Origin: Serratia liquefaciens
GTDB lineage: Bacteria; Pseudomonadota; Gammaproteobacteria; Enterobacterales; Enterobacteriaceae
DNA length: 55,201 bases
Direction: 5' to 3'
NCBI GenBank assembly: GCA_012719855.1
Contig: JAAXZN010000037.1
Coordinates: 1-55,201, forward strand
The translations under genes and the position numbers were made by a program. The notes below the pieces were generated by a model. It was not told the DNA's origin and did no database searches. It saw nothing but the letters and a program-made list of their open reading frames with translations. Shown in pieces: positions 979 to 53,118 of the stretch; the first letter of the stretch is position 1, and every line of letters starts with the position of its first letter.

Positions 979-1162
979 AAACCGGGGGCTTGCCCCCGGC
1001 GAGACTGCTGACAAACATATAATGTTTGGCGGCAGGCGCTAAAGGTTTTGAAAATAAACCAGGAAAATCAATTTATTGGTTTTCGACTGATAACACAAAG
1101 GGGGAAAAACCACGCTTTTATCCCCCTTTGTCAATAACCTGGCCGGGGGTTGCCCCCCGGCG
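979..1162. repeat. Hairpin-bounded intergenic module, copy A (manZ-yobD)
   Basis: Read on the minus strand after manZ, the module has a GC hairpin without a U-tract (1143-1160), about 140 bases of insert, then a nearly identical GC hairpin with a U-tract (982-999). The insert opens with TTGACAAA and closes with TTTGTCAGCAGTCT, which can pair over 7 bp. Inside, arms at 1096-1110 and 1115-1130 enclose the loop GCGTGG. A second small stem, CAAACAT/ATGTTTG, sits at 1012-1028. Copy B at 7864-8040 has the same architecture with different stem sequences. The family is unknown to me. Confidence 0.7.
982..999 (-). terminator. Intrinsic terminator at the distal end of module A
   Basis: An 8-bp stem (CCGGGGGC/GCCCCCGG) with a 2-base loop is followed on the minus strand by TTTTTTATTTG. 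It would end transcripts coming from manXYZ and the module before yobD. Confidence 0.75.
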
Positions 1163-1172
1163 GTTAATCGTC

Positions 1173-2015
1173 TTACAGGCCCAGCAGGCCAACCCAGTAG
1201 CCGAAGATACCGATGACGAAGAAGCCGATGATGATCCACAGCGCATTCACTTTCCTGCGCAGCAGCCACATACAGCCAAAGGTCAGCAGCAACGGCACCA
1301 GACCCGGCATCAGCTGGTCGAGGATGGTCTGCACCGTGGTCACCGTGGTATGCCCGGTCTGGTCGGTGATTTTAGACACCACCAGCGGGATATTCACGTG
1401 CGTCCACTTGTTAACCAATGCCCCCATGACAAACAGGCCGAGAATGGACGCTCCTTCCGTCAGTTTTTGCAGGAAGCCGCCGCCCATATCGTTAACGATA
1501 TCCACCCCTTTGCGGTAGCCGTAGGCCACGCCGTAATAGCGGGTCAACAGGCGCACCAGGTTGAACAGGACGAAGAACAAAATCGGACCCAGTAGGCTGC
1601 CGCTCATGGCGATACCGGCGCCGAGCGCGGCGAATACCGGACGAACGGTCCCCCAGAAAATCGGGTCGCCTACGCCGGCCAGAGGCCCCATCAAGCCGAC
1701 TTTGATGCCGTTGATGGCCGCATCGTCGATCGGCGCACCGTTAGCGCGCTGTTCTTCCATCGCCATGGTAACGCCAAGCACCGGCGCCGCCACGTAAGGA
1801 TGGGTGTTGAAGAACTCCAGATGGCGTTTAATCGCCTGTTTGCGATCGTCGTTATTTTCCGGGTACAGGCGACGGATCACCGGCACCATGGAGAAGCAAA
1901 AACCCAGCGCCTGCATACGTTCGAAGTTCCATGAACCCTGGAACAGGTTCGAACGCATAAACACACCGCGAATATCGGCTGGCGTGAGTTTCTTTTGAGC
2001 TGTTGTATCAACCAT
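1173..2015 (-). CDS. manZ: Mannose-specific PTS component IID
   Basis: ManZ is the IID membrane subunit of the mannose permease. Together with ManY it forms the channel for mannose, glucose, glucosamine and related sugars; in E. coli the pair is also the receptor used by lambda DNA and some bacteriocins. The sequence is collinear with E. coli ManZ, including the DIRGVFxRSNLFQGSWNFER start and the GLMGPLAGVGDPIFWGTVRP core, and ends in hydrophobic helices. An upstream in-frame GTG at 2024 would add three residues. I prefer the ATG at 2015 because it matches the family N-terminus MVDTT and has GGTGAGAG just before it. It is the last gene of manXYZ. Confidence 0.95.
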   Translation of the reverse strand: MVDTTAQKKLTPADIRGVFMRSNLFQGSWNFERMQALGFCFSMVPVIRRLYPENNDDRKQAIKRHLEFFNTHPYVAAPVLGVTMAMEEQRANGAPIDDAAINGIKVGLMGPLAGVGDPIFWGTVRPVFAALGAGIAMSGSLLGPILFFVLFNLVRLLTRYYGVAYGYRKGVDIVNDMGGGFLQKLTEGASILGLFVMGALVNKWTHVNIPLVVSKITDQTGHTTVTTVQTILDQLMPGLVPLLLTFGCMWLLRRKVNALWIIIGFFVIGIFGYWVGLLGL

Positions 2016-2030
2016 TTCTCTCACCTATTC

Positions 2031-2831
2031 CTAGTCCAGTTCGTTATCGAGGTCGTTGGCGTTAGCCGGGCCGGCTTGCACAACTTGTGACTTGTTGTAT
2101 TTCGGGCTGAGCTGGATATACAGCACGGCCATCACCACGCCGATAACGCCGAGCGCGACCAGGTTAAAGTTGGTGAAGGCGGCAGTAACGAAGCCGAGGT
2201 AGAAGAATGGCATCAGATAACCGGCACGCATCATGTTGATCACCATGGCGTAACCGACCACCACGATCATCCCGCCGGCGATGTTCAGGCCGCTGGTGAC
2301 GACTTCCGGGATCGAGTTAAGCAGCGCGTGAACGCCAGAGGTGCCGACCGAGATAGCGACGATAACCGCCGGGATAGCTATACGCATCGCCTGCAACAGC
2401 AGGGCGGAAATATGCAGCCAGGTGATGGCGCGCAAACTGCCGCGTTCTGCCGCGCTGTCCGCTGCGTGCTGGAAGGCGACGGTCAGGGTACGCACGATGA
2501 TGGTCAGAACTTGTCCGGCCGCCGCCAGCGGGATGGCCAGGGCGATACCGGCACCGACGCTTTGTCCGCCGGCAATAACCAAAATGGTGGAAATGATGGA
2601 CGCCAATGCCGCATCTGGCGCAACCGCCGCACCGATGTTCATCCAGCCCAGGGCGATCATCTCCAGCGTACCGCCGATGATGATACCGGTTTTCATGTCT
2701 CCGAGGATAAAACCGATCAGGGTACAGGCGACCAGCGGACGGTGAAATTGAAACTCGTCGAGAACGGAACCCATCCCGGCGATACAGGCAACGATAAATA
2801 TCAGTACAATCTGAAGAGTGGTAATCTCCAT
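2031..2831 (-). CDS. manY: Mannose-specific PTS component IIC
   Basis: ManY is the IIC membrane channel subunit of the mannose permease, 266 residues as in E. coli. Hydrophobic helices span most of the chain, with the family's GxxxALGWMNIGAAVAPDAA segment near residues 55-75. It lies 15 bases upstream of the manZ ATG and 55 bases downstream of manX, which supports co-transcription. The start at 2831 gives the family N-terminus MEITTLQIVLIFIVAC. No abnormality seen. Confidence 0.95.
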   Translation of the reverse strand: MEITTLQIVLIFIVACIAGMGSVLDEFQFHRPLVACTLIGFILGDMKTGIIIGGTLEMIALGWMNIGAAVAPDAALASIISTILVIAGGQSVGAGIALAIPLAAAGQVLTIIVRTLTVAFQHAADSAAERGSLRAITWLHISALLLQAMRIAIPAVIVAISVGTSGVHALLNSIPEVVTSGLNIAGGMIVVVGYAMVINMMRAGYLMPFFYLGFVTAAFTNFNLVALGVIGVVMAVLYIQLSPKYNKSQVVQAGPANANDLDNELD

Positions 2832-2886
2832 TGCACTTCTCCTATGACCAAAGATCTCTGAGTAAAATAATTACTGGCTGTCGCCA

Positions 2887-3858
2887 TTAATTGAGTTTGT
2901 TAATCAGGTCCATCATTTTTAACCGGCTGTCGGACGAGACTTTACGCACTTCCAATTCAATACCGCGCTCGTTTAATTTCTTAAACGCTTCGATATCTTT
3001 TTCGTCAACCGACACGGCATTGTTCACCTGAGTTTTGCCCTGACGGAACGCCATGCCACCGATATTCACCGATTTGATATCCACACCGCCTTCAACCAGG
3101 CGCCAAACGTCGGTCGGGTTGGTAAACAGCAGCATCACGCGATCGCCGGCGTATTTCGGGTTGTTCCACACGCGAATGGCTTTCGCTACGTCAACCACGT
3201 GTGCGGTGACGCCCGGCGGAGCAACCTGAGTCAGCAAGGTTTTGCGGACGTGGTCGGCGGCAACTTCGTCGCTGACCACGATAATGCGGCTGACGTCGGT
3301 TTCCTTGGTCCAGCGGGTCGCTACCTGGCCGTGGATCAAGCGGTCATCGATACGGGCCAGGCCGATTTTCATATGGTCATTGGGCCCCAGCGGCACTTGC
3401 GGAGCAGCGGGTTTGGCGGCGGGAGAACTCTGCGGTGCCGCGGGCTTAACACTCTCTTCTGCCGGTTTTTTCAGCGCTTTCACGCCCTCACGGCCGGTTT
3501 CCAACGCCAGGGCGACCAATTCGTCGAAGCTGGGGTTGTCGTCTCGTGCCATGAACGTTTCCACCAGCATGGGAATGTTAACCCCGGTGACGACCTCATA
3601 GTTTTCTTTATCGACGGCGATGCGGCTGGCCGCATTGAACGGGCTGCCGCCCCAGGTATCCACCAGGAACAGGACGCCACCGCTGGTGTCGAGCCCGCTG
3701 ATTTTCCCGTTGTATTTCTCGATTAACGTTTCGGCATTTTCACCGGGGACGAAATCTATAAAAGCGACGTTGTCCTGTTCGCCCAATAGCATCTCCGTCG
3801 TTTTCAGCAATTGTTCCGCTGCGGTCCCGTGTGTGCCGATGATAATAGCTATTGCCAC
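2887..3858 (-). CDS. manX: Mannose-specific PTS component IIAB
   Basis: ManX is the cytoplasmic phosphotransfer subunit of the mannose permease. The IIA domain (about residues 1-130) carries the phosphorylated histidine H10 in IIGTHG. An Ala/Pro-rich linker (about 130-158) joins it to the IIB domain, which has the second active histidine in RIDDRLIHGQVATRW, near residue 175. The length of 323 residues matches E. coli. It is the first gene of manXYZ and diverges from yoaE. In E. coli the operon is controlled by Mlc, NagC and CRP; I could not assign those sites here with confidence. Confidence 0.95.
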   Translation of the reverse strand: MAIAIIIGTHGTAAEQLLKTTEMLLGEQDNVAFIDFVPGENAETLIEKYNGKISGLDTSGGVLFLVDTWGGSPFNAASRIAVDKENYEVVTGVNIPMLVETFMARDDNPSFDELVALALETGREGVKALKKPAEESVKPAAPQSSPAAKPAAPQVPLGPNDHMKIGLARIDDRLIHGQVATRWTKETDVSRIIVVSDEVAADHVRKTLLTQVAPPGVTAHVVDVAKAIRVWNNPKYAGDRVMLLFTNPTDVWRLVEGGVDIKSVNIGGMAFRQGKTQVNNAVSVDEKDIEAFKKLNERGIELEVRKVSSDSRLKMMDLINKLN

Positions 3859-4434
3859 TCGCTACCTCCTCATTGAACTTCGTGCACGGATTGTGTCGGT
3901 CTTTAGTTCATTTGCTTCCTGGCAGTCACTTCCGCGGTTCAGATACATTATGGTAGAAATCTGGAAACCCGCTCTTAACATTTCTCGCGCAGTTTCAAAT
4001 GCCTGTGCGCGTTGTTCCACGTTAGCGCCATTTATTTTAGTGAGTGAAAAAATAAATTTTGTGACGTTGCTCTGTTATTGAGCGCTCGGATAAGTCCTAA
4101 CGGGGGTGTTTGCGGAATTAAACAACAGAGCTGTTACAAGAGAATGCAGAAGGTAAAAAAGCTTCTTTGCCGCCCAAAAAATTCCTGCTAGAGTATTTCC
4201 TCTTTCATATTTAGGAGTGAAGGGCCTCAGCCCACCCTATGGACTGTCACCGAAGTTACTGTTTTTCAAGGTTCCACCCGCCACCCGCTGGCGTTGCAAA
4301 AATCACACGGCCGCTCGGTCATTCCCCGGTACTACAATCCCGTTATCTTGCTGTTGCTGTCTGCGCTTATTCTGCGTTGGCATTCTCACGCCTGAGCCTT
4401 GCTCGGCAATCCTGTCTTTTTTCCGGAGTCTGAT
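3859..4434. other. Divergent promoter region between manX and yoaE
   Basis: A 576-base gap with no supportable gene. It must hold the manX promoter (minus) and the yoaE promoter (plus). TGTGA at 4060-4064 is a CRP-type half site, but its partner TCTGT is poor. The stretch 4200-4400 is C-rich and little structured by eye. Short ORFs here lack ribosome binding sites and family similarity. Confidence 0.6.
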
Positions 4435-5979
4435 ATGGAATTTTTAATGGACCCCTCAATTTGGGCTGGGTTACTGACACTGATCGTGTTGGAAATTGTA
4501 CTGGGCATCGACAACCTGGTGTTTATCGCCATTCTGGCCGATAAGCTGCCGCCGAAGCAGCGTGATAAAGCGCGTATCCTCGGATTGTCGCTGGCGCTGT
4601 TTATGCGTTTGGGCCTGCTGTCGGTGATTTCCTGGATGGTTACGCTGACCACGCCGCTGTTTAGCGTCGCGGACTTCAGCTTCTCCGGCCGCGATCTGAT
4701 CCTGCTGTTCGGTGGTGTGTTCCTGTTGTTCAAGGCCACCATGGAGTTGCACGAACGGCTGGAAGGGCAGACGCATCAGGATGGCGCCAACCGTGGTTAC
4801 GCCAAGTTCTGGGCGGTGGTGGTGCAAATTGTGATCCTTGACGCAGTGTTCTCGCTCGACGCGGTGATTACCGCCGTGGGGATGGTGAACGACCTGCCGG
4901 TGATGATGACCGCCGTGGTTATCGCTATGGTGGTGATGTTGGTGGCCTCCAAACCGCTGACTAACTTCGTGAATGCGCATCCGACTATCGTGGTGCTGTG
5001 TCTGAGCTTCCTGTTGATGATCGGCCTGAGCCTGATCGCCGAAGGCTTTGGCATGCATATTCCGAAAGGTTATCTGTACGCTGCGATTGGCTTCTCGATC
5101 CTGATTGAGCTGTTTAACCAAATCGCGCGCCGTAACTTTATCAAGCACCAGGCACATCGCCCGATGCGTGAACGTACCGCTGAGGCGATCATGCGCCTGA
5201 TGGGCCAACAGCGGGCGCAGCAGACGGATGAAGCGGCACCGTTGCCGGTGAATGAAACCTTCGCGGAAGAAGAGCGCTATATGATCAGCGGCGTGTTGAC
5301 GCTGGCTTCGCGTTCCCTGCGTAGCGTGATGACTCCGCGCACCGAAATTTCATGGGTGGATTGCGATCGTTCCCGCGAAGAGGTACGCGAACAGCTGTTG
5401 GATACCCCACACAGCCTGTTCCCGGTTTGCCGTGATTCTCTGGATGAAATTATCGGCGTGGTTCGCGCCAAGGATCTGCTGGTGGCGGTAGAACAGGGCG
5501 AAGATATCGCCGAGTTCGCTGCGCGCACGCCGCCGATCGTGGTGCCGGAAACCATGGACGTGATTAATCTGCTGGCAGTACTGCGTCGTGCCAAAGGGCG
5601 ACTGGTGGTAGTCACCAATGAGTTCGGCGTGGTGCAGGGGCTGGTGACGCCTTTGGACGTGCTGGAAGCCATTGCCGGTGAGTTCCCCGATGAGGACGAA
5701 ACGCCGGATATCGTGGTGGAAGCCAACAGCTGGCTGGTAAAAGGCGGTGCCGATATGCACTCGCTGGAGCAGGCGTTGAACTGCGAAGATCTGGTCAGCC
5801 CGACGGCGGATTACGCCACCTTGGCGGGGTTCCTGCTGGCCCATTACGGCCAAATGCCGGTGGTGGGTGACGTGGTGGAGCTGAACCGGCTGCGCTTCGA
5901 AGTCATTGAGGTATCAGAGTACCGCATTGAGCTGGTGCGCATCACCAAAGTGGAGCCTCACGACGAGGAACATCAGTAA
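4435..5979 (+). CDS. yoaE: TerC-family membrane protein with CBS and CorC_HlyC domains (YoaE)
   Basis: A 514-residue inner-membrane protein. The N-terminal TerC domain (about residues 1-240) has the family motif [13 protein letters not shown] and the [15 protein letters not shown] segment, both with acidic residues that probably bind a metal. A CBS pair follows (about 290-410; [15 protein letters not shown], then [18 protein letters not shown]), and a CorC_HlyC domain ends the chain. The exact function is not established; relatives are linked to Mn2+ and metal export at the membrane. The start at 4435 has GGAG seven bases upstream and matches the E. coli N-terminus [16 protein letters not shown]. 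Confidence 0.93.
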
Positions 5980-5985
5980 CACAAG

Positions 5986-6014
5986 CCGGAGGCATCACGC
6001 CTCCGGTTTTTTTT
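5986..6014 (+). terminator. Intrinsic terminator of yoaE
   Basis: An 8-bp stem CCGGAGGC/GCCTCCGG with a 5-base loop and a run of eight T. The hairpin overlaps the last codons of the convergent pdeD gene, which stops at 5995. Confidence 0.9.
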
Positions 6015-7611
6015 CCTGCGCTGCCTTTTGCTCCTCCCGCTGACTCCCCGTCCGTAACCGCGATTCGTACTGCTGTAGCCACAGTGGGAAAACATGGATC
6101 GGCATGGGCTTGGCAAAATAGAAGCCTTGCAGGGCATTCACGTCGTGCGATCGCAAATATTCAACCTGTTCGGCGGTTTCTACCCCTTCAGCTACCAGTT
6201 TCAGTTTCAGGCGCTGCGCCAAGGTAATAATGGTATCGGTGACCGTAGCGTTAATGGCATCGGTACCGATGGCGGCGGTAAACCCGCGATCGATCTTCAA
6301 CACGTCCGGACTGAGTTTTTTCAGGTAGCTGAGCGAGCTGTGCCCGGTGCCAAAATCATCGATCGCCAGCATGATGCCCATTTCCTTCAGCGTTTTGATC
6401 TGCTCATACTGAATTTCCGACAGCGCGGTACGTTCGGTCAGCTCCAGCATCAGCGACGGCATCGGCTGGGCAGGCAGCCACAGACGGCGAATGTCATCGA
6501 TAATGGTCACCGCGTTGAAATGCTCGGCGGCGACGTTGATGCTGATATAAAACGACGGCCGCGGCGGGAATAACTGCAGGTTTTCCACCACGGTGCTCAT
6601 CAGGTAGCGGGTCAGGGGGATGATTAACCCATGCTGTTCCGCCAAGGGGATGAACACGTCCGGGGAGATCCAGCCCTGGCGTTTGTTTTTCCAGCGCAGC
6701 AGGGTTTCAACCCCAACGCAGCGACCGGTTTCTGCGTTGATGATCGGCTGACAGTAAACGCGGAATTCGCGATGAGAAATGGCATGCCCTATATGGTATG
6801 ACAGACTCATGCGGTTGGCGGTGAGCAGGTACACCACGTAGGCTGCCAGCAGGCTGATCAACAACGACAGCGGAATATGGCGCGGCAGCGCCGCCAGTGC
6901 CAGCATATTGGTCTGGGGCCCGTACAGCGAGATAGAAAAGGGGTATTGCGTCGACTTTGCGGTATAGCGCAGGTCGTTCGTCAGGCTGGCACTGCGCAGG
7001 ATCTCGCGGCGGCCGTATTCCAGACTGTAGTCACCCACGTTCAGCACCACCCGTTGTGCATAGGGCTCCTGAGGCTCGAGTAGAAAGTTTGCCAGCAGTT
7101 CAATATTGAAGACATGCAAGACGCCGTTACGGTGATTGTTGTCCTCTTCTGGCGTCCACATGATCAGGGTGGGGACACCTTTGGCGACCGACAGCGAAGG
7201 GCGCAGCGCCAGCTTCGCGCCATCGTTTGCTATTGTGGGCAAAATAGCACTGAAAATATATTTGCGGGAACCAAACAGGCTGGAACAGTAAATAACGCCA
7301 TCCTTGACCAGTAGCATTGCCCGAAGCGCCTGGTTTTGCGCGGCGCGAAAGCGCAGCGTTGGCATTACGGTTTCACAAGTGGAGGTCAGCAGGGGCATGG
7401 AGCGTTTGGCCTGTTGTTCAGCCGGGACAAGCAGATTGTTGATCTTGGTGACGGTGCGGTGGGCAAGCACCTGACGATTGTGCTCGATGCTGCCGATTTC
7501 CTGGTAATAGCGGGTGTACAGCGACAGCAGCAGAATAGCCAACCCAACCGCCCCGGCCAGCAGCCAACGGTAATAGCGGTATTTGGTCACGGTAAGTTGG
7601 GTCATCAACAT
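5995..7611 (-). CDS. pdeD: CSS-motif/EAL cyclic-di-GMP phosphodiesterase
   Basis: The protein hydrolyses c-di-GMP to pGpG, lowering the signal for sessile life. Membrane helices at about residues 16-32 and 246-264 flank a periplasmic CSS domain with the redox-active CSS at 109-111. The EAL domain follows; its signature reads ETL (302-304, GVETLLRW), keeping the metal-binding Glu. Other catalytic motifs are present: ISINVAA, LELTER, IDDFGTGHSSL, LKIDRGF, VAEGVE and LQGFYFAKP, so it is probably active. The position next to yoaE matches E. coli yoaD (pdeD). AAGGA stands seven bases before the ATG at 7611. Oxidation of CSS cysteines by DsbA controls relatives of this protein. Confidence 0.88.
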   Translation of the reverse strand: MLMTQLTVTKYRYYRWLLAGAVGLAILLLSLYTRYYQEIGSIEHNRQVLAHRTVTKINNLLVPAEQQAKRSMPLLTSTCETVMPTLRFRAAQNQALRAMLLVKDGVIYCSSLFGSRKYIFSAILPTIANDGAKLALRPSLSVAKGVPTLIMWTPEEDNNHRNGVLHVFNIELLANFLLEPQEPYAQRVVLNVGDYSLEYGRREILRSASLTNDLRYTAKSTQYPFSISLYGPQTNMLALAALPRHIPLSLLISLLAAYVVYLLTANRMSLSYHIGHAISHREFRVYCQPIINAETGRCVGVETLLRWKNKRQGWISPDVFIPLAEQHGLIIPLTRYLMSTVVENLQLFPPRPSFYISINVAAEHFNAVTIIDDIRRLWLPAQPMPSLMLELTERTALSEIQYEQIKTLKEMGIMLAIDDFGTGHSSLSYLKKLSPDVLKIDRGFTAAIGTDAINATVTDTIITLAQRLKLKLVAEGVETAEQVEYLRSHDVNALQGFYFAKPMPIHVFPLWLQQYESRLRTGSQREEQKAAQEKKPEA

Positions 7612-7806
7612 CGCTAAATCCTTGTTCGGTAAGCCAGCCCAGGATCACCGTCAGGCCAAACAGTCCCAAATGATACTCGGCTAATTCTAGCCTGTTGTTA
7701 TACAAGAAGTGATGGTAACCCAGTAAATTATTTAAATTTGGCGAAACAGAGGGTGAAATTGCAGGTTAACCGCAGGATCAATGTGACGTTGCCAACAGTT
7801 TTTATG

Positions 7807-7821
7807 TGTGACATTGTCACA
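7807..7821. promoter_or_regulatory. Perfect 15-bp palindrome upstream of pdeD
   Basis: TGTGACATTGTCACA is a perfect 7-1-7 inverted repeat about 195 bases upstream of the pdeD start. It resembles a CRP site, but the half sites are five bases apart instead of six, so it may bind another dimeric regulator. No protein can be named from the sequence alone. Confidence 0.45.
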
Positions 7822-7863
7822 TGATCGGCGTTAGCGGATTGATTATCAACGCATCGCACTAAG

Positions 7864-7887
7864 AAAAACCCCGCCGGAAAGGCGGGG
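7864..7887 (-). terminator. Intrinsic terminator at the distal end of module B
   Basis: A 7-bp GC stem CCCCGCC/GGCGGGG, loop TTTCC on the minus strand, followed by TTTTTC. It ends the sdaA transcript after the module. Confidence 0.8.
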
Positions 7888-8040
7888 TCAGACTGCTGAC
7901 AGAGTTCTTTGCAGTGAAAAGTTCTGATCTGAGGACTAATAAAAACAAAGGATTAGGTCTTCAGGTTTACCCCAAACATCCGAAAACCACGCTTTTCGGG
8001 TGTTTGTCATCAGACTAACCCCGCCGGAGAGGCGGGGTTG
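7864..8040. repeat. Hairpin-bounded intergenic module, copy B (sdaA-pdeD)
   Basis: It has the same architecture as copy A. On the minus strand after sdaA comes a hairpin CCCCGCC/GGCGGGG without a U-tract (8017-8039), about 128 bases of insert, then the same hairpin with TTTTTC (7864-7887). The insert opens with CTGATGACA and closes with TGTCAGCAG, pairing at 8 of 9 positions. An internal 14-bp stem (7973-7986 with 7993-8006) encloses the loop GCGTGG, the same hexamer as in copy A. A further imperfect stem lies at about 7929-7964. Confidence 0.7.
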
Positions 8041-53000: not shown

Positions 53001-53118
53001 GCCCGCAGTACCGGGGCGCAACATCACTTGGGGTACGGCCGGACGCCTGCGCTTTAATGCGTGGGGCCCTGTGGCAGGGGCGTGCCATTGATAACCCGTA
53101 AGTAATGGAGAAGTAACG

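Follow-up and report, generated by a model that had tools for sequence, protein, structure and literature searches.

Probable MITEs with IS1182-type ends between duplicated terminator hairpins downstream of manZ and sdaA in Serratia liquefaciens

Hairpin targeting and duplication at dyad symmetries are already published for two kinds of mobile element. Both hairpins and terminators are targets of IS1272, a member of the IS1182 family, which reportedly deletes or replaces the stem-loop and does not duplicate it (PMC4923244; PMC5678879). YPAL, or RU-2, is a palindromic MITE of Yersinia whose duplications are 3-26 bp long and span or lie beside dyad symmetry; in the same account, most small bacterial MITEs are listed with TA at their termini, and YPAL/RU-2 is not (PMC2229807). 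The RU-2 sequence starts with ttcagactgctgacaaac and ends with actttgtcaataacctca as printed in Table 1b of a further source (PMC2759123).

The DNA analyzed here, referred to as the window, is a stretch of 55,201 nucleotides from Serratia liquefaciens. A sequence-only reading had described one hairpin-bounded layout after both manZ (copy A) and sdaA (copy B) and had proposed a structured RNA module of the 3'UTR. We conclude that each module is very probably a MITE moved in trans by a DDE transposase of the IS1182 family and that the elements form a new MITE family, probably driven by IS1182-type transposases. The first conclusion draws on the dispersal of the copies, on their fixed ends, on their location mostly at terminator-like hairpins with that hairpin duplicated on either side, and on relatives in which the same sites lack the element; it also draws on IS1182-family insertion sequences (IS) of other bacteria, which share the terminal repeats, have a subterminal hairpin at the corresponding position and duplicate hairpins in the same way.

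Layout, element types and distribution

Direct reading of the window found the described layout on the minus strand at both loci (Table 1). The outer hairpins are alike within a locus and differ from site to site in the copies read at many sites, and the inner stems of copies A and B are unlike in sequence while both still pair; the earlier description was accurate on each of these points. At each locus, a simple consensus scan classed only the second hairpin as terminator-like. Reading of the copies separated two element types in the window, which have their ends and GCGTGG hairpin in common and their interiors not: type A contains a near-palindrome like GAAAATCAATAAATTGATTTTC, and type B an ACACCCG stem. 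Terminal inverted repeats were found, with a left end like AGGTTGCTGACAAAG and a right end like TTTGTCAKCAGTCTG. Elements of 128-141 bp are too short for a transposase gene of their own, and none is present. The right subterminal hairpin of copy A would be the counterpart of the right-end hairpin of IS1182-family IS.

Table 1. Positions of the features of copies A and B in the window
Feature	Position	Strand	Remarks
Copy A, left target duplication: manZ terminator hairpin without U-tract	1143..1162	-	read directly; genus comparison
Copy A, TGACAAAG	1133-1126	-	read directly
Copy A, very probable MITE of type A, about 141 bp	1002..1142	-	ends CAGGTTATTGACAAAG / TTTGTCAGCAGTCT
Copy A, left subterminal hairpin	about 1095..1131	-	loop GCGTGG 1115-1110
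Copy A, inner near-palindrome GAAAACCAATAAATTGATTTTC	1063..1084	-	confined to type A
Copy A, right subterminal hairpin AAACAT-TAT-ATGTTT	1013..1027	-	read directly
Copy A, TGTCAGCAGTCT	1013-1002	-	read directly
Copy A, right target duplication, then T6 U-tract 981-976	982..1001	-	likely working terminator
Copy B, left target duplication: sdaA terminator hairpin without U-tract	8017..8038	-	read directly; genus comparison
Copy B, very probable MITE of type B, about 128 bp	7889..8016	-	same kind of ends and GCGTGG hairpin, other interior
Copy B, TGACAAA	8009-8003	-	read directly
Copy B, left subterminal hairpin	7971..8009	-	loop GCGTGG 7992-7987
Copy B, TGTCAGCAGTCT	7901-7890	-	read directly
Copy B, right target duplication, then U-tract	7867..7888	-	likely working terminator

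The modules are a dispersed repeat, more than chance would give. This is concluded from genome-wide counts, as the count within the window is weak: AAAAGCGTGGTTTT has two matches there at up to 2 mismatches, both exact and one per locus, and at least 2 matches arose in 11 of 100 shuffles. Genome-wide, AAAAGCGTGGTTTT has 7 exact matches and TGTCAGCAGTCT has 10, against 0 for the backward control of each. AAAAGCGTGGTTTT was present in 10 of the 21 genomes searched, including its own, and nine of these ten belong to its own genus. Type A matched 8 times in the window's genome (G000; one match partial), and 11 times in the conspecific genome G025; of 30 genus genomes, 20 had matches, the window's own among them. 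At least 116 matching stretches were found in named genomes, and the 80 listed of these include stretches in Serratia, Cedecea, Buttiauxella, Enterobacter, Citrobacter, Providencia and Dryocola; one listed match, in a Bacteroidales MAG, was judged to be chance. The further copies in related genomes that the sequence-only reading had called for were thus found.

E. coli genomes, searched with copy A at E 0.01, gave no match. In the plasmid collection, 10 records (9 Klebsiella, 1 Providencia) matched copy A in part, over at most 47% of the query, and none matched copy B. When the order was drawn evenly, the exact pattern of GCGTGG and TGACAAA occurred in 3 of 295 genomes, own included, so the element type is patchy in the order; the hit in one of the three (G114) was by look a plain hairpin and was rejected as an element.

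Several related arrangements were also observed. Elements with the same kind of ends and other interiors were designated type C (GGTAGGGGCGC...GGGTCGAACATGTTCGACCC) and type D (GGGCCTACCG...GAGGGGCGCTCCGG); these further elements are at loci L208, L211 (own genome), L212, L213 and L282. At L209 and L210, contig ends of the own genome, right ends of type C are joined to one shared sequence, which resembles an IS481-type end. Two tandem copies with a hairpin between them occur at L109 and L196, as if one element had entered the duplicated terminator of another. A type A copy of the window's genome (L333, contig C66) has unlike hairpins on its left and right, as if two copies had recombined.

Duplicated hairpins, empty sites and orientation

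Sites that are empty in relatives, together with fixed junctions, show that the outer hairpins match because they are target-site duplications of the terminator hairpin. Across copies the hairpin varies by site and is repeated on both sides, mostly ending 7-9 bp before TGACAAAG and restarting 14-16 bases after the start of TTTGTC. The copies used for counts of duplications, sites and covariation were mostly found by exact TGACAAA and GCGTGG, so these columns are fixed by selection. After four of 137 pattern hits had been removed as chance (L166, L177, L193, L194), a strict anchored rule was applied to 133 copies: 89 carried an ungapped duplication of at least 14 bp (17-34 bp) at the fixed ends, 6 one of 5-13 bp, and 38 none. 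A gapped repeat scoring at least 25 was present in 15 of these 38, with the first copy in L196 left out of the 15, and absent in 23. Copy A of the window itself fails the strict rule because its two hairpins have diverged, and was recovered by gapped alignment.

At 86 unique sites, which include one outlier (L196), the duplication measured 22.7 +/- 2.6 bp, and its center lay within 1 bp of the hairpin center at 72. Self-complementarity of at least 85% was seen in 72 of the 86 duplications and in 937 of 20000 random segments. Duplication length was correlated only moderately with the length of the GC core of the hairpin (r = 0.46, p = 8e-6); a value of r = 0.93 for the IS duplications was set aside, as the hairpin there was measured inside the duplication. 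A few copies off hairpins show short repeats (e.g., 6 bp at L098 and 9 bp at L179, at the exact junctions), some of which may be chance.

Comparison with the genus supplied the empty sites. Downstream of manZ, 27 genus stretches comprised 2 with the element (G000 and G025), 22 with one hairpin and 3 with other insertions; downstream of sdaA the corresponding numbers among 26 stretches, read in 26 of 27 matching genomes, were 2 (the same two genomes), 22 and 2. Both sets were classified by eye. Six of the 8 type A matches of G000, a 70-contig draft, are at the same site in G025, and 5 of the 11 in G025 fall off the 8 G000 sites in a comparison of the match lists. The insertions of other species include, at the manZ terminator, a degenerate element of the GGGGCGCTCC type or its remnant (L033, L037, L039) and, at the sdaA terminator, a palindromic element and a longer insertion (L087, L071), so the two terminators have been hit repeatedly.

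Orientation was counted in three ways. Flanking runs at the 86 sites had T on the right at 26, A on the left at 21, both at 23 and neither at 16. A second count at the same sites, requiring a difference of at least 2 between T and A, gave 31 to 17 with 38 between (p 0.06). Neighboring open frames were sense only for 25 of 104 copies, antisense only for 20, both for 50 and neither for 9; this gene count is crude, using open frames only and leaving out 29 of the 133 copies for short flanks. The element enters in either orientation, with a possible mild preference for sense.

The GCGTGG hairpin and the ends of IS1182-family insertion sequences

The stem of the GCGTGG hairpin is kept by compensatory change, which upholds the claim that structure rather than sequence is conserved. 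After removal of two of 51 distinct hairpins without a stem (one each from L204 and L096), the remaining 49 had 42 cells with changes on both sides, where shuffles, which do not keep relatedness, gave 7.7 +/- 2.4; slid structures fell far behind the true stem. The informative pairs are the six middle ones; pairs with two-sided change numbered 6 against 4.4, within the shuffle range (67 of 500 reach 6). Among 41 windows taken from right-end matches (40 regions; 84 matches listed) and picked without the pattern, most have the same hairpin, some have a changed loop, and a few are other element types or misplaced windows.

A hairpin in the same place in the end, likewise with a 6-nt loop, occurs in IS1182-family IS. 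Eight plasmid IS with these ends are annotated as IS1182 family; in these, a 12-bp hairpin whose loop has 6 nt comes after the left end, and another hairpin lies beside the right end. A scan of viral contigs for both ends yielded locus L255, in which ends of CAGATTATTGACAAAG (left) and TTTGTCAGCAGTCTG (right) lie 1,560 bp apart and enclose two ORF pieces, and which also has a duplicated hairpin. The same CAGATTATTGACAAAG is found identically in 3 of the 8 type A matches of G000. In NCBIfam the two ORF pieces matched the IS1182 transposase NF033551 best, with E values of 1.8e-59 and 9.7e-64; neither by itself reached the whole-protein cut-off, as expected for a piece. In the left-end hairpins of the eight plasmid IS and L255, 99.1% of cells pair and 12 change on both sides against 3.3 in shuffles; pairs with two-sided change (4 against 2.6; 83 of 500 shuffles) and further pair types (8 against 7.3) are within the shuffle range.

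The repeat pair and hairpin duplication were present together at 14 of 39 loci (L255, L285-L288, L291, L311, L313 and L316-L321), the 39 being 30 loci, L255 and the 8 from plasmids; among the other 25, several are transposase matches that are short or distant. The ends are also present at L314 and L315, where the hairpins on the two sides are unlike, perhaps through recombination. Transposase frames are broken in L255 and some others, and six of the plasmid IS have one annotated coding sequence. Members of the IS1182 family reportedly make long, variable duplications, as recorded in ISfinder. In a YPAL-like copy (L257), ends 1,520 bp apart enclose an ORF that resembles an IS110-type transposase.

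The search of the window's genome revealed no IS1182-like transposase, and PF05598 (DUF772) was found in 0 of 30 genus genomes, a result that at first spoke against IS1182 as the driver; the driver has therefore been lost or comes from elsewhere. Tested for an IS1182-type transposase (NF033551; DUF772 and DDE domains), the window elements have none and fall outside the family, so that they are probable derivatives of it rather than members. What links them to IS1182 is the ends, the hairpin position and the target behavior, not similarity of the interior.

Mechanism, alternatives and comparison with known systems

In the mechanism we propose, repair after insertion would duplicate the entire hairpin, and the left copy would lose its U-tract. 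Transcripts of manZ and sdaA would then extend across the element and terminate at the right hairpin copy, which would make the insertion nearly harmless. The GCGTGG hairpin would be kept as part of a transposon end read by the transposase. More tentatively, and with some doubt on our part, the transposase may read shape in both partners, recognizing one structural feature in the subterminal hairpins of the element and in the extruded terminator hairpin. Such shape reading, if true, would explain why the donor stems vary in sequence and are constant in form, and why many different terminators serve as targets with the hairpin as the duplication. It would also mean that one IS1182-type machinery drives Enterobacterales MITEs with unrelated interiors (types A-D and YPAL), and that terminators are a safe landing site in which each insertion rebuilds a working terminator.

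The original proposal of a structured 3'UTR RNA or switch, with the paired hairpins and covarying stem as alternative folds after manZ and sdaA, now appears highly improbable. It is true that the stem covaries, that both window copies are sense and downstream of a gene, and that sense is favored in one of the orientation counts (31 to 17), but the other two counts are even (26:21 for terminators and 25:20 for open frames), the outer hairpins are transposon target duplications with fixed junctions and empty sites in the genus, and the stem sits in the same subterminal place in the ends of IS1182-family IS. Rfam 15 gave nothing over the gathering score at either locus and nothing near it at permissive thresholds. 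(Elsewhere in the window, Rfam matches were obtained to the yybP-ykoY manganese riboswitch at 95-278 on the minus strand and to the KDPG-aldolase RNA at 53032-53111 on the plus strand.) Hairpin 1 can indeed pair with hairpin 2 because each duplicates the other, and a switch is not needed to account for it. Multiple copies and covariation, taken as a test, cannot tell an RNA from a structured transposon end; the case is a warning that the two together can mark such an end and not a functional RNA.

Three other explanations were weighed. Some copies could have turned useful, giving a stable 3'UTR-derived RNA or tuning decay of the upstream mRNA. Insertion should lengthen the 3'UTR behind a hairpin without a U-tract, and YPAL is said to be co-produced with the genes upstream of it, perhaps with an effect on how stable the transcripts are (PMC2229807); the sites are not kept across species, and we consider this unlikely. 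That the MITEs are moved by a transposase of another family that happens to share the end sequence would fit with the failure to find an IS1182-type gene in the own genome or genus. We find it very unlikely, given that IS1182-family IS of several genera have the same terminal repeats, a hairpin at the same position with a loop of equal length, and duplicated target hairpins, and that IS1272 is known to target hairpins and terminators (PMC4923244; PMC5678879). If terminators had undergone local tandem duplication or gene conversion on either side of an unrelated repeat, some copies could have come to bear unlike hairpins on their two sides, as observed (C66 of G000; L314 and L315); this explanation is strongly disfavored by junctions at a nearly fixed distance from the ends at many unrelated sites, and is scarcely credible. 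Movement of the MITEs by IS1182-family transposases thus remains our preferred reading, and would give YPAL-type MITEs a probable driver. A literature search that covered few subscription journals showed, among the papers listed, no work linking IS1182 to YPAL-type ends or to the present element.

Among described systems, ERIC, RUP, Correia and other small bacterial MITEs are likewise small, dispersed and structured, as compared by their descriptions (PMC2229807). Kristensenii39 (142 bp) and Aldovae3 (154 bp), two repeats of Yersinia that were compared by size and host, are of similar size and from related hosts (PMC2847712). IS1182-family IS carry a transposase, and the window elements do not. 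YPAL/RU-2, of about 168 bp, has printed ends that by reading match the right and left ends here, and a copy much like RU-2 lies between two hairpins at L250. Its interior and length differ from those of the window elements, and the RU-2 sequence, as printed, is without GCGTGG; because of the differing interior and length, the window elements are not filed as YPAL. Unlike IS1272, the elements here duplicate the stem-loop, which corresponds to branch 6b of the model described in the Figure 13 legend of an IS1272 paper (PMC5678879). The dozens of natural whole-hairpin duplications described here are thus the outcome drawn there as one branch of the model.
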